A DNA stretch of 64,000 nt. Source: Candidatus Ornithospirochaeta avicola (GTDB taxonomy: Bacteria; Spirochaetota; Spirochaetia; Sphaerochaetales; Sphaerochaetaceae). Made by a program: the position numbers and the translations under genes. The notes under the pieces are model-generated. The model was not told the origin of the DNA. It did no database searches and saw only the letters and a program-made list of their open reading frames with translations. Each line of letters opens with the position of its first letter. Within the stretch, counting starts at the first letter, position 1. Below are positions 14,104 to 23,290 of this stretch, piece by piece. The stretch covers positions 186,001 through 250,000 of the forward strand of contig DXHU01000023.1 of NCBI GenBank assembly GCA_019113245.1, written 5' to 3'.

Positions 14104-15432
14104 TTAAACCCTTTTATAGCTGTCATTTGCTTCTTTTATGAATGCACTGAGCTTTGATGCATCCACTCTGACCTGTTCCATTGAGTCACGGTAGCGCAGT
14201 GTAACGCTTCCATCTTCCAGTGTCTGATAATCGACAGTGACACAGTACGGAGTTCCTATTTCATCCATTCTTCTGTATCTTCTTCCGATTGCTCCGCTCT
14301 GATCATAGAAAGTCTTGTAGTCAGCTCTCAGATTCTTTTCAAGCTTTGCTGCATACTCAGCAAGCCCATCCTTCTTCACAAGAGGAAGGACTGCAACAGT
14401 AACAGGTGCAATCTGAGGATGGAAATGAAGAACAGTCCTGACATCTCCTTCCGGAGTTTCTTCCTCATCATATGCATCAGAAAGAGCCATAAGGACATTT
14501 CTTGTGAGTCCTGCACTTGTCTCCACTACATACGGGATATAGCGCTCATTTGTCTCAGGATCAAGATAAGTCATATCCTTCTTGCTGAAGTTCTGGTGCT
14601 GTGTAAGGTCATAGTCAGTCCTTGAATGCACACCTTCAAGCTCCTGCCATCCCATCGGGAAGAGGAACTGGATGTCATATGCATCCTTTGCATAGAATGC
14701 AAGCTCATCTGGACCATGCTGATGCCATCTCAATGACTGAGGATCGATTCCCATCTTATGATAGAACTTCATTCTCTCTTCTCTCCAGTACGGGAACCAT
14801 TCGTCCTCAGTGCCCGGTTTGCAGAAGAACTGCATCTCCATCTGCTCGAACTCACATGAGCGGAAAATGAAGCTCTTTGTAGTTATCTCGTTTCTGAAGC
14901 TCTTTCCAATCTGCGCGATTCCGAACGGGATCTTGACTCTGCTTGACTGAAGAACATTCTTGAAATCCACATAGATTCCCTGTGCTGTCTCAGGGCGGAG
15001 ATATATTGTCGATGCGCTGTCCATGCTCGGACCGATGTGGGTCTGGAACATAAGATTGAAATTCCTTGGCTCAGTGAATGTGCCATTGCTTCCGCATACC
15101 GGGCATGGAGCTGAAAGGTCAATCTGGTCTGCACGGAAACGGCTCTTGCACTGCTTGCAGTCAACCATAGGGTCTGTGAAGTTTGAAACATGTCCGCTTG
15201 CTTCCCATACCTTTGAATGCATAAGAATTGAAGCATCAAGACCGACGATGTTGTCATGAAGCTGTGTCATCTCCTTCCACCAGAAATCTCTGATGTTGTT
15301 CTTCAGCTCGACTCCCATCGGACCATAATCATAAGCTCCATTGAGTCCTCCATAGATTTCACTTGACTGGAAAATGAATCCTCTTCTCCTGCAAAGTGAT
15401 ACGATTTTATCCATTGTAGCCTTAGATCCCAT
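14104..15432 (-). CDS. glyS: Glycine--tRNA ligase, single-chain alpha2 type
   Basis: A 442-residue class II synthetase of the homodimeric (eukaryotic/archaeal-like) type rather than the alpha2-beta2 GlyQ/GlyS form. It begins SKATMDKIVSLCRRRGFIFQ and has YGGLNGAYDYGPMGVELK, two CxxC pairs in CKQCKSRF and CPVCGSNG (zinc-ribbon-like), motif 2 RNEITTKSFIFRSCEFEQME and motif 3 with ETSAGLTRNVLMAL. The anticodon-binding domain is at the C terminus. The ATG shares a base with the gltX stop (TAATG), indicating translational coupling. Confidence 0.95.
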   Translation of the reverse strand: MGSKATMDKIVSLCRRRGFIFQSSEIYGGLNGAYDYGPMGVELKNNIRDFWWKEMTQLHDNIVGLDASILMHSKVWEASGHVSNFTDPMVDCKQCKSRFRADQIDLSAPCPVCGSNGTFTEPRNFNLMFQTHIGPSMDSASTIYLRPETAQGIYVDFKNVLQSSRVKIPFGIAQIGKSFRNEITTKSFIFRSCEFEQMEMQFFCKPGTEDEWFPYWREERMKFYHKMGIDPQSLRWHQHGPDELAFYAKDAYDIQFLFPMGWQELEGVHSRTDYDLTQHQNFSKKDMTYLDPETNERYIPYVVETSAGLTRNVLMALSDAYDEEETPEGDVRTVLHFHPQIAPVTVAVLPLVKKDGLAEYAAKLEKNLRADYKTFYDQSGAIGRRYRRMDEIGTPYCVTVDYQTLEDGSVTLRYRDSMEQVRVDASKLSAFIKEANDSYKRV

Positions 15433-16892
15433 TACTTTTCCTCCAGAAATGATATTGCTCTCTTAATCCTTCTCTTTGTCTCATCCATGCCCAGAAGGCG
15501 GACCGAATCAAAAAGAGGAAGAGATACCTGAGAGTTTGTGATTGCGACCCTCAGGGGCTGGAACACGCCATTCACTTTAATTTCCAGCTCTTTTGAAAGC
15601 TCAAGAAGAGCCTCTTCAATCTTTTCTTCTGCTTCTCCTTTTTCTAAAGAGGAAATGAAAATCTCAGATCCTCTTTTTAGAGCAGAAAGAGTCTTCTCCT
15701 CATCACTTCCCTTTGCAACATAGATGCTTCTGTCTGTAACAGGGACATCTTCAAAGAGGAAGGAAGAGAGACTTACTATGTCAGAAAGGGTCTTCATTCT
15801 CTCCTTTGCAGCATGAGCAAGGGAGATAAGCTTCTCCTCATCTGCTTTGAAGCCTGCAGACTCAAGATACGGCTTTATAAGCTGAGCAAGCTCTTCATCG
15901 CTTTTCTGCCTGATGTAATATCCGTTGAACCAATCAAGCTTCTTGTAGTCAAACACTCCAGGAGCCTTGTGGATATTCTCGATTTTAAAGCATTTCTCAA
16001 GATCCTCCTTTGAGAAAATTTCACGCTCTCCATCAAGTGCCCATCCGACAAGAGTTACATAGTTTATTATGGTCTCAGGAAGATAGCCCTTGTCCCTGAA
16101 GTCCTTCACGCTGGTAGAGCCATGCCTCTTTGAGAGTTTCTTCCCATCTTTTCCCATGACCATCGGAAGGTGGCAGTAAACAGGGGGCTCCCATCCGAAT
16201 GCCTGGTATAAAAGGATATGAAGAGGCCCTGAGGGAATCCATTCCTGGGCTCTCATTATATGCGTAATGCCCATCAGGTGGTCATCTACAACATTCGCAA
16301 GATGATATGTCGGATATCCGTCGCTCTTTAACAGCACAGGATCTGGAGAGACATCCTTATTCTTCCTTGTGATGTCTCCCATTATAATGTCATGGAATGT
16401 AGTCTTCCCCTCTGTAGGGACCTTGAGCCTGATTACAGGCTTTATGCCCTGTCTTTCATACTCAGCTCTCTCTTCTTCAGTCAAAGAACGGCAGTGCCTG
16501 TCATATCCCTGATATTCACTCTTGCTTTCCTCCTGCTTCTTTCTCACCTCTTCGAGGCGCTCAGGAGAACAGTAACAATAATAAGCCTTGCCTTCATCGA
16601 CAAGCTGTTTTGCATACTTCTGATATATCTCAAGACGCTCCGACTGGATGTATGGACCGCAAGGTCCACCCTTTATAGGGCCCTCGTCCCATGAGAGGCC
16701 AAGCCATGTGAGTGTCTGGTACAAGTCATCAAGATAAGCAGTGCTGTAGCGCTCCCTGTCAGTATCCTCTACACGCAGGATGAACGAACCGCCGTTGCTC
16801 TTTGCGGCAAAGTAATTGAAGAGTGCCGTGCGCACGCCGCCAATATGCTGGAAGCCTGTCGGGCTTGGAGCATAACGAACTCTGAATTCCAT
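15432..16892 (-). CDS. gltX: Glutamate--tRNA ligase
   Basis: A 486-residue class I GluRS. It begins MEFRVRYAPSPTGFQHIGGV (the HIGH motif is HIGG here) and has KLSKRHGSTSV as the KMSKS loop. The open frame extends upstream to 16952, but the family start is the ATG at 16892, which has GGAGA 7 bases upstream. It is the first gene of gltX-glyS-tyrS. A TAAAAT (16906-16911 on the minus strand) may be its -10. Spirochaetes commonly use the GatCAB route for Gln-tRNA, so this enzyme may be non-discriminating; that is inference. Confidence 0.95.
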   Translation of the reverse strand: MEFRVRYAPSPTGFQHIGGVRTALFNYFAAKSNGGSFILRVEDTDRERYSTAYLDDLYQTLTWLGLSWDEGPIKGGPCGPYIQSERLEIYQKYAKQLVDEGKAYYCYCSPERLEEVRKKQEESKSEYQGYDRHCRSLTEEERAEYERQGIKPVIRLKVPTEGKTTFHDIIMGDITRKNKDVSPDPVLLKSDGYPTYHLANVVDDHLMGITHIMRAQEWIPSGPLHILLYQAFGWEPPVYCHLPMVMGKDGKKLSKRHGSTSVKDFRDKGYLPETIINYVTLVGWALDGEREIFSKEDLEKCFKIENIHKAPGVFDYKKLDWFNGYYIRQKSDEELAQLIKPYLESAGFKADEEKLISLAHAAKERMKTLSDIVSLSSFLFEDVPVTDRSIYVAKGSDEEKTLSALKRGSEIFISSLEKGEAEEKIEEALLELSKELEIKVNGVFQPLRVAITNSQVSLPLFDSVRLLGMDETKRRIKRAISFLEEK

Positions 16893-16948
16893 AAAATATC
16901 TCCGAAAAAATTTTACAAGGACTATAGTAGTTTCTTTTCGTTTTTTTC

Positions 16949-17761
16949 TCAATAAGAAGAAGGAAAAAGGAAGTCTTTTGTAAGAGCTATGGCCTTTTTC
17001 TCTGCATCCTCGCTCTTGTCATAGAAAAGATAGTGTGTGCCGTCCTCGACAAAAGCTATGCTCACATTCGGATTTGAAAAATGCGTGATGTTCCTGACTA
17101 TCTGATCCTCTTTTGCAAGGATTAAAAGAGAGGGAGTGCTGAGAGTCTCTATTTTCTTCCTTGCACTCTTCATAAGGCGCTTTAAAGACAGAAACTGCGA
17201 TGGGTAGAGATGCGACCAGTACTCCTTTCCGAGCATCTCATCATCATCCGGGGCACCCGGATAATGCATTCTGTAACTGCTGTCGCTTTTCCAAGGAAGA
17301 GAGAGAATCTTATTATCTTTTTCAAGACCCTTCAGAAATAAGGTCGGGACATTGCTCTTAAGGCGGAATGCGGGGGCTGCAAGCACTATTTTGTCCGCTT
17401 TTTCGCTAAGGGAAAGAGAGGCTCCCATGCTGTGAGCGACAATGTAAAGCTTTTCGTATCTGTTCCTTAAATCCTCTATTGCAGAGGAAACAAGGCAGAG
17501 CCAGTCCTTTTCGGATGTATGGACAAAATCATCCCCGCTTGTTCCCATTCCTGGAAGGCGCGGACAGTATATGTCTGAATAAGGAGCAAGAGAGGCGGCA
17601 AGCGAGAAAAACTCTCCAGGATACCCTGCATAGCCGTGGACAAGAAGAGTTGCCTCTTTTTTCCCGTCAGTTATCTTAAATGAACGGGCTGCTTTAATTA
17701 CAGGGCTTTTATCGCGGTAGATGCCATCATACCATGAAGAGAAATCAGTATATTCTACCAT
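16949..17761 (-). CDS. Alpha/beta hydrolase, carboxylesterase/monoacylglycerol-lipase-like
   Basis: A 270-residue alpha/beta hydrolase. It shows LVHGYAGYPGEFF (oxyanion region), PRLPGMGTSG, the nucleophile elbow VAHSMGAS near residue 110, the acid in LILAKEDQIV and the histidine in EDGTHYLFYD. No signal peptide, so probably cytoplasmic; the substrate is unknown. The start is the ATG at 17761, which overlaps the stop of the LuxR gene (TCATGGTAG) and has AAGGAAG upstream. It is the last gene of the five-gene operon and the only one with a plain hydrolase fold. A function on lipid, quorum-signal or acylated second messengers would be speculation. Confidence 0.8.
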   Translation of the reverse strand: MVEYTDFSSWYDGIYRDKSPVIKAARSFKITDGKKEATLLVHGYAGYPGEFFSLAASLAPYSDIYCPRLPGMGTSGDDFVHTSEKDWLCLVSSAIEDLRNRYEKLYIVAHSMGASLSLSEKADKIVLAAPAFRLKSNVPTLFLKGLEKDNKILSLPWKSDSSYRMHYPGAPDDDEMLGKEYWSHLYPSQFLSLKRLMKSARKKIETLSTPSLLILAKEDQIVRNITHFSNPNVSIAFVEDGTHYLFYDKSEDAEKKAIALTKDFLFPSSY

Positions 17762-18642
17762 GATGCTTCCTTTAATAGATTCAAAAGGTCTATCCTGCAT
17801 CTGACATCAGTCTTGCTGAAGATGTTTGCAATGTGATTGTTCACGGTATTCACACTTATTGAGAGCTCAGAAGCTATTTCCTTGTTCGTAAGCCCCTTCT
17901 TTATGAGGTTTATTATCTCAACTTCTCTTCCCGTTATATGATACTCCTCAATCATGCGGCTGCTCATGCCTTCTTCTCTTGATCCGCCTTCCTTTCTCTG
18001 GTTCTCAATTGCAATGAACAGAAAGACCATTATCATGACAAAGTAAAAGAGAGCAATCAGTGAGATGAAGATGCTGCTGAGATCGGTAAATATGAACGAG
18101 AGAATCAGAAGGGGAAGCATCGACAGGGATACCACCATGATAGTAAGCGTTACATTCCTTACACTCCTTTCTTCAATCTTCCTTCTTGATACTATCATCA
18201 ATGCGGCTGTGTAGATTATCAGGATGAGGAACACAATATGAAGTAGCGCCCTCAGGTGCATGTCCAGAAAAAGGCCCAACACTGACATGGCCACAAAGAA
18301 AACAGAAAGGATTGAAAAAAGAATCTTCTCGCTGAGATTCATCGGCCGCGCGATTATCCAGTTTATTAAAATCGGAGTGAACACTATTAGAAATGCAGCA
18401 TCAAGAACGGCAAGAAACGCAAATACAAGAGATACCACTGTTCTGCTGAATCCTGTAAATGCGATTGTAGTAAGCTGCAGGAATGTATAGGAAAATACAG
18501 CTCCCATGATGGTCGCCATGAAGACGATAAGATAACGCGACCATGAAAAATTGGCCCTGCGCCCCCAGCAGATTGCGAGCGCAAGGTCCATAGATATTAT
18601 GCTTGTAGCAAATATGCAGATGACTACTGCAATACTTGCCAT
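17755..18642 (-). CDS. Seven-TM membrane-bound LuxR-type transcription factor
   Basis: A 295-residue protein with an N-terminal half of seven predicted membrane helices (roughly residues 1-25, 38-63, 70-98, 103-123, 130-150, 160-183 and 188-209). A cytosolic C-terminal GerE/LuxR helix-turn-helix covers about residues 230-290: ITGREVEIINLIKKGLTNKEI, then SVNTVNNHIANIFSKTDVRC. It would be a one-component membrane sensor-regulator. The start ATG overlaps the RloB-like stop (TGATG), so it is translated in coupling with a putative defence pair. The ligand and target promoters are not visible. Confidence 0.85.
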   Translation of the reverse strand: MASIAVVICIFATSIISMDLALAICWGRRANFSWSRYLIVFMATIMGAVFSYTFLQLTTIAFTGFSRTVVSLVFAFLAVLDAAFLIVFTPILINWIIARPMNLSEKILFSILSVFFVAMSVLGLFLDMHLRALLHIVFLILIIYTAALMIVSRRKIEERSVRNVTLTIMVVSLSMLPLLILSFIFTDLSSIFISLIALFYFVMIMVFLFIAIENQRKEGGSREEGMSSRMIEEYHITGREVEIINLIKKGLTNKEIASELSISVNTVNNHIANIFSKTDVRCRIDLLNLLKEASW

Positions 18643-19277
18643 CACTTGAATGCCTTCTGGTTGTGAGACATGTCAGCCACTCCGCACACATCCTGCACAC
18701 ACTGGTTGAAAACAGGCATTGTCAGGACAGGAAGAGAAAGGCTGTAGCTGTTTGCATCATTGTATGTTCTGGCATTGAGATCTGCCTGAGCATGACGTGG
18801 GAAAAGCATCAAGTGAAGATTGAGGCCCTTTGTAAGTAGCCACTGAGGAGAAAATTCAAAGCCGTTTATCCCACTTTTCACCTCGTCCCGGATCTTCTGG
18901 CTGTCTCCTTCAAAAGCACTCATTCTCTTCAAGTGCAGGAGGAACCAGAGCTCAAAGCACGGATTGAAGTAGATCATCGTGATTCTCTTCTTTGCACAGA
19001 TTTCTTCTGCAGCCTTGACTTCATCTATGTTTGTATTCACATCATCAAAGCCGAAGAGTGCAAACACATGATTGAACTTTCCGCTGTACTTCTTCTTTCC
19101 TGTAATGTCAATCAGCTGCTTCAGGCTGAGTCCTTCGCGTCCTGCCCACTCGACTGTCAGGTTCATGTACCTGCAATCCTTTCTCATCTGATTAAAGTAG
19201 AGTGCCTCGCTCTTTGTCGCAGTGACAAGGAGGATGGTCTCTTTAGCTTCCTGAGTATTCTTCTTTCTCTTGATCAT
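18642..19277 (-). CDS. RloB-like TOPRIM protein with altered catalytic residues
   Basis: A 211-residue protein resembling RloB/AbiLii, the TOPRIM partner of RloA-type ATPases. The family signature FNPCFELWFLLHLKR near residue 104 is intact. The TOPRIM glutamate motif, normally like VCEGEKTE, reads LLVTATKSEALYF near residue 16, so the catalytic Glu is replaced. The DxD motif, normally FDRDD, reads ALFGFDDVN near residue 73, losing its first Asp. It follows the ATPase with no gap (TAA then ATG) and has AGGAGG 8 bases upstream. The family comparison is from memory. A nuclease-dead role or a changed chemistry is inferred. Confidence 0.75.
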   Translation of the reverse strand: MIKRKKNTQEAKETILLVTATKSEALYFNQMRKDCRYMNLTVEWAGREGLSLKQLIDITGKKKYSGKFNHVFALFGFDDVNTNIDEVKAAEEICAKKRITMIYFNPCFELWFLLHLKRMSAFEGDSQKIRDEVKSGINGFEFSPQWLLTKGLNLHLMLFPRHAQADLNARTYNDANSYSLSLPVLTMPVFNQCVQDVCGVADMSHNQKAFK

Positions 19278-20552
19278 TTAGTTTTCCTCCTTCTCTTCAT
19301 CCTCGACAGGAGTGCCGTCATGGACAAAATAGAAATCACTTGTAACAGGCAGAGAACCGAATGCTCCCTGCAGATAGCGGTTGTAGACGCTTGTCCTGCT
19401 TCTTCCCTTGAAATCAGAGAGGGAATAGAAGACTGTGCTCGACTGGCTGTCCTTCTGGGCAAACCAGATTGCATCCTTTCTTAAAAGTCCTTCCTTCAAA
19501 AGGGACGGGTTGCAGTCTACGACGAGCATCTGGCTTCTCTTGTTGCAGTTCTCAAAAATCTCAACGATATGGCAGAGAACATCGGGATGCAAAAGCTGCC
19601 CGAAGTCATCGATTAAAAGAACCTGATCCTTTACAAATGCTGTGAAGAAAGCAATTCCGATTGCTACAAGACGCCTTAATGACAGTGATTCCATGAGGAA
19701 TGTGTTTGAGTATCCATCAACTTTCTTATCATTGACATAAACATGTGTGAATACAACGCTCTTGCTTCCATCCTCCTTGACTCTCACAGCAACTCTCCTG
19801 ATGTCTGTTATATCGACAGACCAGAGATAGTTGACGAGCATGTCGCCCCATCCCGGATGTTTTGAGAGAGCCTCAGCCACAAACTGCTCAGCCTGTGTTC
19901 CAACACCCATAGGAAGAATGTTGAGAGTATTCTCAAACCATGAATACATCCTTCCAGATGTCTCTCCGCCTGAGAGTGCGCTCTCAGAAAGGAAAGTCCT
20001 GCTTTCAGGAAGATTCTTTGCACTCCTCTTCTTCTCGCCCCTGTAAAGCTTTCCAAAGCGGTAGTCATAGCCTTCTGCATCAGATGAGAGCTTTCTCTCA
20101 AACATGAGCTTCTTTGAGTTATTGACAATGAAGTAAAGGCTTTCTGAGAAAATCTTGTCCTTGTTGGCCACAAGGGTGTATCTGCCGATTACAACAGGAT
20201 TCTCCTCATCTCCCTCAATTCCCTTGTCAAGAAGGACATCGATTGAAATCGTTGCCGGTGTAGCCTTGTCTATCCCGTATGCGAACACTGTGCCTGAAAG
20301 GCTTCCTGCAAGCGGATTTGCAATATCGCGCGGGGAAAGAACAATCCTTCTCAAAACCTCAAGAGCTCTCACGAATGAGCTTTTTCCAGCTCCATTCGGA
20401 CCGATTACGGCACTTGTCTTAATCAGACTCATCTTGTCATTGATTCTGATGACCTTGGCAGAATCAAGACGATTGTCCTTAACGGACTCAAAGCAAATGG
20501 TCTGAGGATTCTTGACCGATTTGAAATTCTCAATAGTCATGCTCAAAAGCAT
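19278..20552 (-). CDS. RloA/AbiLi-like AAA ATPase with degenerate signature and Walker B
   Basis: A 424-residue ABC-type/AAA_15-like ATPase starting with LLSMTIENFKSVKNPQTI, the usual opening of this family. Walker A GPNGAGKSS near residue 50 is intact. The signature, normally ES-x-GT-x-R, reads FLMESLSLRRL near 285. Walker B reads VLLIDDFGQLLHP near 310, with Asp in place of the catalytic Glu. The switch position, usually TTHN, reads LVVDCNP near 344. It is thus likely to bind ATP but poor at hydrolysis. AGGAGG stands 7 bases before the ATG at 20552, and the frame overlaps the PHP gene by 10 bases. RloAB/AbiL pairs are phage-defence modules in other bacteria. Confidence 0.78.
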   Translation of the reverse strand: MLLSMTIENFKSVKNPQTICFESVKDNRLDSAKVIRINDKMSLIKTSAVIGPNGAGKSSFVRALEVLRRIVLSPRDIANPLAGSLSGTVFAYGIDKATPATISIDVLLDKGIEGDEENPVVIGRYTLVANKDKIFSESLYFIVNNSKKLMFERKLSSDAEGYDYRFGKLYRGEKKRSAKNLPESRTFLSESALSGGETSGRMYSWFENTLNILPMGVGTQAEQFVAEALSKHPGWGDMLVNYLWSVDITDIRRVAVRVKEDGSKSVVFTHVYVNDKKVDGYSNTFLMESLSLRRLVAIGIAFFTAFVKDQVLLIDDFGQLLHPDVLCHIVEIFENCNKRSQMLVVDCNPSLLKEGLLRKDAIWFAQKDSQSSTVFYSLSDFKGRSRTSVYNRYLQGAFGSLPVTSDFYFVHDGTPVEDEEKEEN

Positions 20553-21205
20553 TGTACTACCTCCTTTATCTCTCTGGATAAATCATTCATTTTCTTCTGT
20601 ATCATGCTGTAGCGCGAAATGACTTCCGCCGCAAAGATAATATCATCTCTGTTTCCATGGCAGTCAGAGGCCACAAGATCTACAACTCCGCTTTCCAGAT
20701 ATTCAAGCACCCTGCCGCCTTTTTTGACTGCCTTTCCGTTTATCTGGATAAGATAGCCCTTATCCTTGAACAGCCTCACCAGCTGACTGTCTGCACTAAG
20801 CCAGCTGTAACGCTCAATATGTGCGATTATCGGCGTCAGCTCAGAAGAAATCGAATCCAGCTTCTCAACAAGATTCACAGGCGCGAAAGCTGTTGAGAAC
20901 TCTAGTAGAATATAACGGCCGGCAATCGGAAGACCTTTTATGAATGCTTCATCCGAGACATAGACTTCGCTTGCCAGAACTGGAAGAAGATCATGATGCT
21001 CAGACATATCTGCTGCTTTTTTAAATGCATCCCTTATGCCTTTTATGTCAGTCACCACAAACGGATTGTAAAGATGCGGTGTAAAACATACTGTATCAAA
21101 TCCACAGGCGCGATAAAGAGAAAGCAGGTCTTCAAGGCTCTCCCAAGTCACTTCCGTGTGGTCGATTGAAGGCAATAGGTGTGCATGTACGTCTATCAGT
21201 CCCAT
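20543..21205 (-). CDS. CpsB/YwqE-like PHP-domain phosphoesterase
   Basis: A 220-residue PHP protein of the CpsB/YwqE (manganese-dependent tyrosine phosphatase) type. It has DVHAHLLPSID at the N terminus, FTPHLYNPF near residue 41, SEVYVSD near 76, IIAHIERYSWL near 127 and VASDCHGNRDD near 180, so the metal ligands are retained. Members dephosphorylate BY-kinases in capsule systems, but no kinase, Wzx/Wzy or glycosyltransferase gene is near. Instead it is the first gene of the operon with RloA- and RloB-like proteins. A TATACT ends six bases before the ATG and there is no ribosome-binding site, so the operon mRNA is predicted to be leaderless. Confidence 0.82.
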   Translation of the reverse strand: MGLIDVHAHLLPSIDHTEVTWESLEDLLSLYRACGFDTVCFTPHLYNPFVVTDIKGIRDAFKKAADMSEHHDLLPVLASEVYVSDEAFIKGLPIAGRYILLEFSTAFAPVNLVEKLDSISSELTPIIAHIERYSWLSADSQLVRLFKDKGYLIQINGKAVKKGGRVLEYLESGVVDLVASDCHGNRDDIIFAAEVISRYSMIQKKMNDLSREIKEVVQCF

Positions 21206-21211
21206 ACCATG

Positions 21212-21241
21212 AGTATAGTTTAAAGGTTGAAAAATTTACAA
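21212..21241 (-). promoter_or_regulatory. Promoter of the PHP-RloAB-LuxR operon, leaderless
   Basis: TTGTAA (21236-21241), an 18-base spacer and TATACT (21212-21217) on the minus strand are followed by six bases and the ATG at 21205. Confidence 0.7.
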
Positions 21242-21262: not shown

Positions 21263-21315
21263 TTCCATCATTTGAAGGCATAATCCTGCATCTTTCATGC
21301 CTCAAAATGATGGAA
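21263..21315. repeat. Long imperfect inverted repeat upstream of the PHP operon
   Basis: Arms of 19 bases (21263-21281 and 21297-21315) match at all but two positions when one is reversed and complemented; the outer ten bases TTCCATCATT are perfect. The loop is 15 bases. No T run follows on either strand, so it does not look like a terminator. It lies about 25 bases beyond the -35 of the PHP operon and could be a regulator site or an RNA structure. Confidence 0.7.
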
Positions 21316-21393: not shown

Positions 21394-21417
21394 TACGGAA
21401 TTAATTCCGTATTTTTG
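21394..21417. terminator. Hairpin/terminator after the CsgG-like lipoprotein gene
   Basis: A perfect 18-base palindrome TACGGAATTAATTCCGTA has TTTTTG after it on the plus strand and CTTTTG on the minus strand. It lies directly after the stop of the minus-strand lipoprotein gene and may serve both directions. Confidence 0.7.
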
Positions 21418-21419
21418 CA

Positions 21420-22508
21420 TCAGATGTACATTCTGTATATGTTATAGCTGGTATCCCCCTGCTCCCCAGGGCTCTTTCCTTCTATCTGGCTCTGAGCCTC
21501 TTCTGTGCTTTTTTGCATTCTCAAAAACGTGTTTTTAAGCTCAAGAAGTTCACTAGCTCCTGTTTTCTCATATGCCTCATCAAGAATATCAATAGCTTTT
21601 GAGATATCGCTTATTGCATAAAGGAGTGCTGCATTATATGCACTCGGGATATGGGAGGAGGAGGAAAACACAGAATAGAACTCGTTTGCAGCAGCCAGAT
21701 ACTTTCCATCCTTTGCCAGATCATATGCAAGCTCTGCACTCTCATTTTCAGGCTTGTTCTTCATCAGGCTGATATTGCTTGTAACCGTATGCGGGACAAA
21801 GTCAAAGACCATGCTCTTTATTATTCCCCTAATCATGTTGTTGTATGAGTAAAGAGGGGATGGAGGAGAGAACCATGGTCCGGGGATTTGAGCATCATCG
21901 CTGAATGTGCGGCTGAATGAATCAGAGAATATGACTTTGTTTGTCCTGCTGTCTACAAGGGTGTATGAGAATTTGAGCGTGCATGAGACTGAGTAATAAT
22001 AATCTGTGTCTACAACCACAATCTCCTTTCCATCCTCGGCTATGACAATTCTCTCTTTCGACTTTGAATGTATGTATTCATTTATATACATTGTGTCTAT
22101 TGAGGAAAGAAGGACCGCATCGGCACCGAGAGCGGAAAAATCCTCTCCGGGATTATATGAATACTTTATTATGTGATCAGTCTCACGGGGAGAGATGACA
22201 GAAAAATACCTGCTTTCTTCAAGCTGTCTGACAATCTCAGAAGTGGCATAGTCTGCAACAGAGAAAGCAAGATTTGAAGAGTAGCTTGAATAGATTTTCG
22301 AATACATTCTTCCGCTCTCCCTGTCGCTTGTGCGGATGAAGACAGATGGGCGGGAAAAACCTCTGTCAGGAGTCACAGTTGCTACTGCTATGTTCCTGTA
22401 CGGGCCCATGTCGACACGGGATGGAACCATGTATTTGAGATCCACGCTTGTCTGGCAGGATGTGAAGAAAAGAAGAACAAGGGAGCAAAAAAGAATGATT
22501 TTCTTCAT
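21420..22508 (-). CDS. Lipoprotein, CsgG-like N-terminal part with TPR-like tail
   Basis: A 362-residue protein with a lipoprotein signal peptide (FCSLVLLFFTSC, lipidated Cys at residue 18). The next part, GPYRNIAVATVTPDRGFSRP, and the pattern of SVADYATSEIVRQLEESRYF followed by ADAVLLSSID resembles CsgG/LpoB-type periplasmic lipoproteins. After about residue 255 there are two or three TPR-like helix pairs (LAYDLAKDGKYLAAANEFYS, then AYNAALLYAISDISKAIDIL). The precise function is unknown; it is probably anchored in the outer or inner membrane facing the periplasm. The ATG overlaps the stop of the upstream unknown gene (ATGA). Confidence 0.72.
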   Translation of the reverse strand: MKKIILFCSLVLLFFTSCQTSVDLKYMVPSRVDMGPYRNIAVATVTPDRGFSRPSVFIRTSDRESGRMYSKIYSSYSSNLAFSVADYATSEIVRQLEESRYFSVISPRETDHIIKYSYNPGEDFSALGADAVLLSSIDTMYINEYIHSKSKERIVIAEDGKEIVVVDTDYYYSVSCTLKFSYTLVDSRTNKVIFSDSFSRTFSDDAQIPGPWFSPPSPLYSYNNMIRGIIKSMVFDFVPHTVTSNISLMKNKPENESAELAYDLAKDGKYLAAANEFYSVFSSSSHIPSAYNAALLYAISDISKAIDILDEAYEKTGASELLELKNTFLRMQKSTEEAQSQIEGKSPGEQGDTSYNIYRMYI

Positions 22509-23290
22509 ACTATACCTCCAAAGTCCGCATCTCTGAGGCTTTTTATTACAGAAGCAAGACCCTTGTAGTTTCTCTCTGTATTTATGTAAAGGAAAGGAAG
22601 CCCGAGAGAGAATACATAATCCATTGCCCCGCTTCTGTACTGCCTCATCAGAACAGCTGCATTTGGAATTCTGAATGCCTCCTCTGCGCTGTGTGCGATA
22701 ACCAGGTTTATCCTCAGATGGCTTGCTATTCTGCCAATCTCCCCTTCTCTGATCTCTTCGCTGGTGCTTACAAGCACAAGGGGCTTGTCCTGATCGTAAA
22801 AAGGATTATCCGTGTAGCTTGTCACATGCACAAGAGCATCAATTATGTTCTCCCTTGTGTACTCTGCAGTTGATGGAAATGTGAATATCTTCCTTCCATC
22901 CAGAGTATATACCATGTTCATTATATGATTCGGCATTGCCTCAGCTGCAAAATCTTCCTTGTATCTGCTGTCTGATCCAAATCCGAGCATGAGCTTGACA
23001 GGATTGTTGTTCATGACAAGGAACGCTGTATTAAGCACATCCTGTGCATCATATACGATGAACGGTGATTTCTTTGCAACTTCCTCAACAAGGCTCTCAT
23101 AGTCGCTGACCATCGTGAAAAAAGGGATGGCCCTGTTATTCTTCAGTGCGACGCTTTTGAGTCTTTCAAGGTCACATACAGTCATCATGTTGTTTCTCTC
23201 AAGCCTGATCTCAAGATTGAGAGTATCCACTATTTCAAGTAGTTTCTCATCATCGTCTTCAAAGACTGCAAGAAGTGTATAGCTCTGCAT
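22505..23290 (-). CDS. Unknown cytoplasmic protein paired with the lipoprotein
   Basis: A 261-residue protein I do not recognise. It has no signal peptide or membrane segment. It looks like an alpha/beta protein of two similar halves: YTLLAVFEDDDEKLLEIVDT near the start and PLVLVSTSEEIREGEIGRIA near residue 170 both look like a beta strand followed by a helix, as in Rossmann-like folds. VKLMLGFGSDSRYKEDF lies in the middle. A TAATAT hexamer ends six bases before the ATG and no ribosome-binding site is present, so it is predicted leaderless. It is translationally coupled to the lipoprotein gene downstream. Confidence 0.7.
   Translation of the reverse strand: MQSYTLLAVFEDDDEKLLEIVDTLNLEIRLERNNMMTVCDLERLKSVALKNNRAIPFFTMVSDYESLVEEVAKKSPFIVYDAQDVLNTAFLVMNNNPVKLMLGFGSDSRYKEDFAAEAMPNHIMNMVYTLDGRKIFTFPSTAEYTRENIIDALVHVTSYTDNPFYDQDKPLVLVSTSEEIREGEIGRIASHLRINLVIAHSAEEAFRIPNAAVLMRQYRSGAMDYVFSLGLPFLYINTERNYKGLASVIKSLRDADFGGIV

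Follow-up and report, generated by a model that had tools for sequence, protein, structure and literature searches.

The closest described relatives of the locus treated here, the ordinary AbiL, PARIS and OLD systems, are defence systems. AbiL/RloAB consists of two adjacent genes, an AAA_21-type ATPase and then RloB, and PARIS (AriA-AriB) is also a two-gene system, with an ABC ATPase and a TOPRIM partner. In AriB, a related TOPRIM RNase, the E26A substitution abolishes activity (PMC12409363). ATPases of the OLD type tolerate unusual motifs, among them an H-loop Asn, an altered Walker B and a degenerate signature (PMC7049728).

We analyzed a 64,000-nucleotide stretch (the window) of the 1.5 Mb genome of Candidatus Ornithospirochaeta avicola (GCA_019113245.1, contig DXHU01000023.1, positions 186,001 to 250,000), whose minus strand carries five open reading frames at 16949-21205: a PHP phosphoesterase (PHP), an RloA-like ATPase, an RloB-like protein, a membrane LuxR-family regulator (LuxR) and an alpha/beta hydrolase (ABH). 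An earlier note had read them as an operon joined by overlapping or abutting junctions and built round a catalytically degenerate RloA/RloB pair with a retained, repurposed signalling or defence function. All five genes were found where that note had placed them, on the same strand, and their families were confirmed by Pfam and PADLOC. A fixed, repurposed pair that has probably ceased to act as a nuclease is well supported by the sequence comparisons below, and we lean slightly towards a history in which an AbiL-type RloA/RloB pair gave up its defence-nuclease role in an ancestor of three spirochaete orders and has since been passed on vertically as a cellular complex.

Active-site motifs of RloA and RloB

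Both core proteins proved to match the expected profiles, as the earlier note had supposed: AbiLi was matched by all of the RloA orthologues tested (23/23) and PF13707 by all of the RloB orthologues (22/22). In the window, RloA has a weak match to the AriA profile besides the AbiLi match given in Table 1, while RloB scored 48.8 bits against PF13707, above the gathering cut-off of 31.5, and matched the PADLOC AbiLii profile at 1.7e-11.

Among 35 aligned family members, Walker A was the only one of the ATP-site motifs of AbiL/RloAB kept in RloA, as GPNGAGKS (GPNGVGKS in genus g21). Walker B reads DD(F/Y)G in place of DE, the signature ESxG(T) is replaced by ESLSLRRL (ESLSMKRL in g21, ESFSLRRL in one member), and at the H-loop position DCNP replaces (T/S)H(N/D), that is, THN or SHD, such that the H-loop His is gone. 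DDFG and DCNP were also present in the RloA of 80/80 further loci from named public genomes. As a control we used 28 ordinary RloA proteins of the same class, some of them from the same genomes as derived copies; DE and ESxG were kept in 28/28 of these and the H-loop His in most. The source genome, G000, has a second, ordinary RloA-type ATPase (L067, contig C8) with DE and the H-loop His intact. The predicted model of RloA (predicted local distance difference test, pLDDT, 83) gave PtuA, Rad50 and SMC heads as its best fold matches, and a search of PDB sequences with RloA returned generic P-loops only.

The changes in RloB affect the nuclease site itself. In the aligned orthologues, TOPRIM has lost its catalytic Glu (EG) as well as DxD, and no Glu stands at the TOPRIM place equivalent to E26 of AriB, whereas the recognizable RloB partners of the ordinary RloA control proteins retain EG. 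Two new motifs are conserved instead, RKDCRYxN(L/M)TV and CGxADxxHNQK. Because E26A inactivates AriB (PMC12409363), the loss of the Glu from RloB is stronger evidence than the altered motifs of RloA. The predicted model of RloB (pLDDT 93) has an alternating beta-alpha core.

Inheritance of the pair and its older neighbourhood

Matches were found in 130 of the 139 Sphaerochaetaceae genomes searched; five of these had only ordinary homologues (best E above 1e-25) and were left out, so that RloA orthologues are counted in 125/139 genomes and 17/22 genera of the family. The source genome itself belongs to this family, its relatives in named collections being Candidatus Ornithospirochaeta, Bullifex porci, Pleomorphochaeta and Sphaerochaeta. 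RloA was accompanied by RloB in 80/80 loci of named public genomes, and among derived loci the two were never found apart, contig ends excepted. In 34 sampled loci we found the block LP-(PHP)-RloA-RloB-(LuxR)-(ABH)-gltX-glyS-tyrS, in which LP is an upstream lipoprotein gene and the bracketed genes are absent from some loci. The five-gene order, on which the earlier note had staked its reading, is thus kept across the family and does not reflect chance.

The RloA and GltX trees broadly agree, with end branches shorter in RloA than in GltX. For the closest pair of genomes, G000 and G062, the ratio of nonsynonymous to synonymous substitution rates (dN/dS) was 0.010 for RloA, 0.006 for RloB and 0.026 for GltX. 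The broad agreement of the trees and the low dN/dS therefore indicate vertical inheritance under strong purifying selection; together with the class-wide contrast in motifs, they bear out the claim of a retained, repurposed pair. The derived proteins form one clade (support 100), whose stem is 1.64 changes per column long while end branches have a median of 0.32, a pattern of a burst followed by constraint. A plasmid search with RloB gave no match, and a phage search with RloA gave ordinary homologues only, at 23-32% identity; a mobile-element reading of the locus was rejected on these two results.

A sample of 395 genomes from across the class showed the derived form outside the family in just two small orders, f3 (G140, G186) and f4 (G141, G167); beyond these, scores fall to those of ordinary homologues. 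In both orders the TOPRIM acids are missing from RloB, Walker B of RloA reads DD, and its H-loop His is absent. The RloA of G186 (L176:7155-8597) also carries a low-complexity insert made of repeats of GTA and GTAA residues. In f3 and f4 the pair is preceded by a sugar-nucleotide-type nucleotidyltransferase, a Wzz/GNVR/AAA_31 bacterial tyrosine kinase (BY-kinase) and a PHP phosphatase. LuxR follows the pair in f3, and LuxR and the hydrolase lie upstream of it in f4; the pair is near gltX in f3 and does not adjoin it in f4. Because the pair lies behind the nucleotidyltransferase, the BY-kinase and the CpsB phosphatase in these orders, its origin appears to be linked to surface polysaccharide control. 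The CpsB partner in the operon is explained by this older exopolysaccharide cluster of the two other orders.

In Sphaerochaetaceae the BY-kinase lies with a Poly_export/SLBB protein at another site, about 50 kb off in G000, G093 and G110; at the sites inspected, it is next to pyr genes. The source genome encodes its Wzz/BY-kinase at C23:258849 (Wzz, GNVR and AAA_31). The pair that it forms there with Poly_export/SLBB (L231:7762-11678, contig C23), again beside pyr genes, is about 53 kb from the operon, just outside the window. Across genomes, CpsB-family (PHP) genes and Wzz/BY-kinase were both present in 23, both absent in 11 and discordant in 3 (Fisher p 1e-6); independent pairs stood at 5:0 (sign test p 0.06).

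Operon layout, companion genes and partial losses

The features of the locus are collected in Table 1. The PHP stop and the RloA start overlap by 10 bp (20543/20552), RloA and RloB abut (19278/19277), RloB and LuxR have 1 base in common (18642), and LuxR and the hydrolase overlap by 7 bp (17755/17761). In relatives, the five genes stay closely spaced, but the distance to gltX can be anything from tens of bases to 5 kb; the five genes are therefore likely to form one transcription unit. LP is probably a separate unit, and gltX probably has its own promoter at 16952-16924.

Table 1. Features of the RloA/RloB locus, numbered from the first letter of the window
Feature	Position	Strand	Evidence
CpsB/CapC-type PHP phosphoesterase, 220 aa, first gene of the unit	20543..21205	-	PF19567 CpsB_CapC 2.8e-21
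RloA/AbiLi-type ABC-like ATPase, derived, 424 aa	19278..20552	-	AAA_21 2.9e-14; PADLOC AbiLi 1.2e-57
RloB-type pseudo-TOPRIM protein, 211 aa	18642..19277	-	PF13707 RloB 1.2e-12
Membrane LuxR-family regulator, 295 aa, 7 predicted transmembrane helices and C-terminal GerE helix-turn-helix	17755..18642	-	PF00196 4.4e-15; hydropathy
Alpha/beta hydrolase, 270 aa	16949..17761	-	PF12697 Abhydrolase_6 3.8e-14
Sigma-70-like promoter TTGTAA-18-TATACT, directly upstream of PHP	21212..21241	-	consensus match only
Terminator-like hairpin downstream of the lipoprotein gene, dividing it from the operon	21394..21411	-	
Upstream lipoprotein gene LP, 362 aa, without Pfam family, constant syntenic neighbour	21420..22508	-	
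gltX (glutamyl-tRNA synthetase), constant downstream neighbour, followed by glyS and tyrS	15432..16895	-	

The promoter-like site ends 7 bases ahead of the PHP start, and a comparison of upstream regions across species placed a TATAAT-like box at a similar position in most PHP-bearing loci. An Rfam search of the leader matched no RNA family. Upstream of PHP, at 21263-21315, lies a near-perfect inverted repeat with 19-bp arms, 2 mismatches and a 15-base loop; elsewhere in the genome only three sites with 2 mismatches resemble it. The repeat is kept in the near relative G062 and not in other loci, and was rejected as a LuxR operator or shared motif. The entire LP-PHP spacer folds far better than shuffled sequences (z -5.2). 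In several genera a CobO/BtuR-type adenosyltransferase gene stands between LP and PHP (L046:10919-11452, L055:7454-7999 and others), and upstream of LP in the window (22505-23290) is a gene for a 261-aa protein that matches no Pfam family and recurs in only some close relatives.

The conserved set of PHP (H7 H9 D15 H44 E80 E102 H129 R132 D181 H183) matches that of Cps4B (H5 H7 D14 H42 E80 E108 H136 R139 D199 H201; ligand list in PMC2777267), so that the metal ligands and the equivalent of Arg139 are all present. PHP is therefore predicted to be a protein-tyrosine phosphatase of a BY-kinase exopolysaccharide system. It is the sole CpsB-family gene found in the source genome, and in the genomes surveyed such genes are almost always single copy and inside this operon; G079 has four of them clustered in 5.5 kb (C1:2643774-2649250), away from its RloAB operon. 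The hydrolase keeps its Ser-Asp-His set, S111 (in HSMG), D219 and H243, as invariant columns of the alignment. The catalytic degeneracy that the earlier note described holds for the RloA/RloB pair, by alignment with ordinary homologues of the same class, but does not extend to PHP and the hydrolase. LuxR has seven hydrophobic segments ahead of its helix-turn-helix, in the window and in six relatives, and its GerE domain is nearly invariant in 20 orthologues, as expected of a membrane regulator of the LuxR type.

Partial losses of members led us to reject an obligate five-gene system. In genus g22, RloAB is present without LuxR or hydrolase, and RloA-RloB-gltX stand alone (L064, L065, L066), with RloB and gltX 4 bp apart in L064 and overlapping by 1 bp in L065. 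Genera g8, g14 and g18, which have reduced genomes, retain LP-LuxR-gltX at the locus, as in L193, L196, L197, L198, L200 and L204, and PHP, RloA, RloB and the hydrolase are gone from it. This loss is most simply secondary because the GltX tree groups these genera with the pair-bearing g21. Of the system proposed by the earlier note, the order has stood but inseparability has not: the presence of PHP goes with that of the BY-kinase, LuxR remains at loci that have lost RloAB, and RloAB persists with gltX alone in g22.

Function of the pair and described systems

We propose that RloA would bind ATP and hydrolyze it slowly or not at all, and that an ATP-dependent RloA oligomer would hold RloB. Probably devoid of nuclease activity, RloB may use a conserved basic/polar surface (RKDCRY, CGxADxxHNQK) to bind nucleic acid or a protein partner, such that the pair would be a nucleotide-dependent switch or scaffold and not a toxin. 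From the motifs and their conservation, a cellular function other than that of a nuclease is very probable. The process served would most likely be cell-envelope or surface-polysaccharide regulation, because the oldest detectable neighbourhood comprises the nucleotidyltransferase, the Wzz/BY-kinase, the CpsB phosphatase, the membrane LuxR regulator and the hydrolase; an envelope role is nevertheless a tentative assignment. It is almost as likely as not that an entire clade of spirochaetes has turned an ATPase/TOPRIM pair once directed against phages into a core regulatory complex for its cell envelope. Both active sites would have been rewritten, and the resulting pseudo-ATPase/pseudo-nuclease switch would be of a previously undescribed kind.

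Several results weigh against this proposal. RloAB is kept in nine tested genomes without PHP or Wzz/BY-kinase, so the polysaccharide link is not obligatory, and RloAB and LuxR do not form one inseparable pathway because LuxR outlives RloAB in three genera. Loss of hydrolysis by RloA is only probable since OLD-type ATPases accept unusual residues at the ATP site (PMC7049728). The RloB model had no significant fold match in the PDB and a PDB sequence search found no solved homologue, and for this reason its fold is deduced from Pfam and the predicted topology.

The pair might instead belong to translation or tRNA housekeeping, having retained its ancestor's capacity to bind RNA but not to cut it, and working with tRNA or glutamyl-tRNA synthetase. 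Across the family its neighbours are gltX-glyS-tyrS, in f3 it is close to gltX, the packing against gltX in g22 is tight, and the related AriB acts on tRNA (PMC12409363). We find this unlikely: gltX probably has its own promoter and can be as much as 5 kb away, with other genes in between, the pair is not beside it in f4, and gltX-glyS-tyrS is unchanged in genera without RloAB, so the synthetase cluster may be merely a stable neighbourhood.

A pair still engaged in defence or abortive infection, with new catalytic residues in place of the lost ones and made permanent in the lineage, would agree with the AbiLi and RloB profile matches and the role of the ordinary relatives, and the new conserved polar residues could form a new active site. 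However, the pair is vertical, syntenic and slow-evolving, its derived form is absent from plasmids and phages, it sits in a housekeeping neighbourhood with no defence island, and ordinary copies with intact motifs coexist in the same genomes. Defence is thus improbable, and has become the less likely half of the "signalling or defence" function first suggested.

Slightly more doubtful still is that the pair serves solely as a dedicated accessory to the polysaccharide machinery of BY-kinase and CpsB. The common cluster in f3 and f4 and the co-occurrence of PHP, the first operon gene, with Wzz/BY-kinase speak for it, but it is weakened by the nine genomes that have RloAB without either partner and by g22, which keeps RloAB without LuxR and hydrolase. 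A decaying, functionless relic held in place by its neighbours would account for the lost catalytic motifs and the loss of the locus in reduced genomes, but frames have stayed intact in 17 genera and three orders, the new motifs are conserved, and the selection data (dN/dS near 0.01) refute it for practical purposes.

Defence genes are thought to turn over fast; this pair, by contrast, has become fixed in three orders. It has lost the nuclease site, its ATP site has been rewritten, and selection on it is about as strong as that acting on a tRNA synthetase. A repurposed pair of this kind would be a clean case for how immune machines turn cellular, for which the ordinary copies carried by the same genomes could serve as controls. 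It is also a warning, as most Sphaerochaetaceae could be scored AbiL-positive in error when defence genes are annotated with AbiL profile models. These are non-helical spirochaetes, and the operon offers a set of genes through which envelope regulation in them could be tested.

With CpsB/Wzb-Wzc polysaccharide control the operon shares a PHP with the Cps4B metal-ligand set that co-occurs with Wzz/BY-kinase; to our knowledge no CpsB locus with an RloAB pair has been described. The literature collection searched contained no such locus and no paper on this pair or its operon. PtuA (Septu, retron) and the heads of Rad50 and SMC are the nearest folds to the RloA model. Their partners, however, are an HNH nuclease, Mre11 and kleisins, respectively, and not a degenerate TOPRIM protein. 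Cran1 of Saccharolobus, in the OLD family, is a precedent for an OLD-type ATPase moved from defence to a cellular role (PMC12796447). ATPase and nickase are both active in Cran1 (PMC12796447), whereas here the nuclease site is gone and the ATPase and TOPRIM-like parts are in separate genes. PARIS has the same two-gene composition, and its AriA profile matches weakly here, but AriB needs E26 for tRNA cleavage (PMC12409363), the equivalent Glu is absent here, and nothing in the surroundings pointed to anti-restriction or defence. Gene order and full-length profile matches are shared with AbiL/RloAB, and descent from it is clear. The locus nevertheless differs from AbiL/RloAB in having lost the TOPRIM Glu and DxD, in having replaced the Walker B Glu, ESxG and the H-loop His, and in being vertically inherited, not sporadic, within a fixed neighbourhood linked to envelope regulation; because the defining catalytic features were looked for and are missing, calling it an AbiL defence system would be unwarranted.

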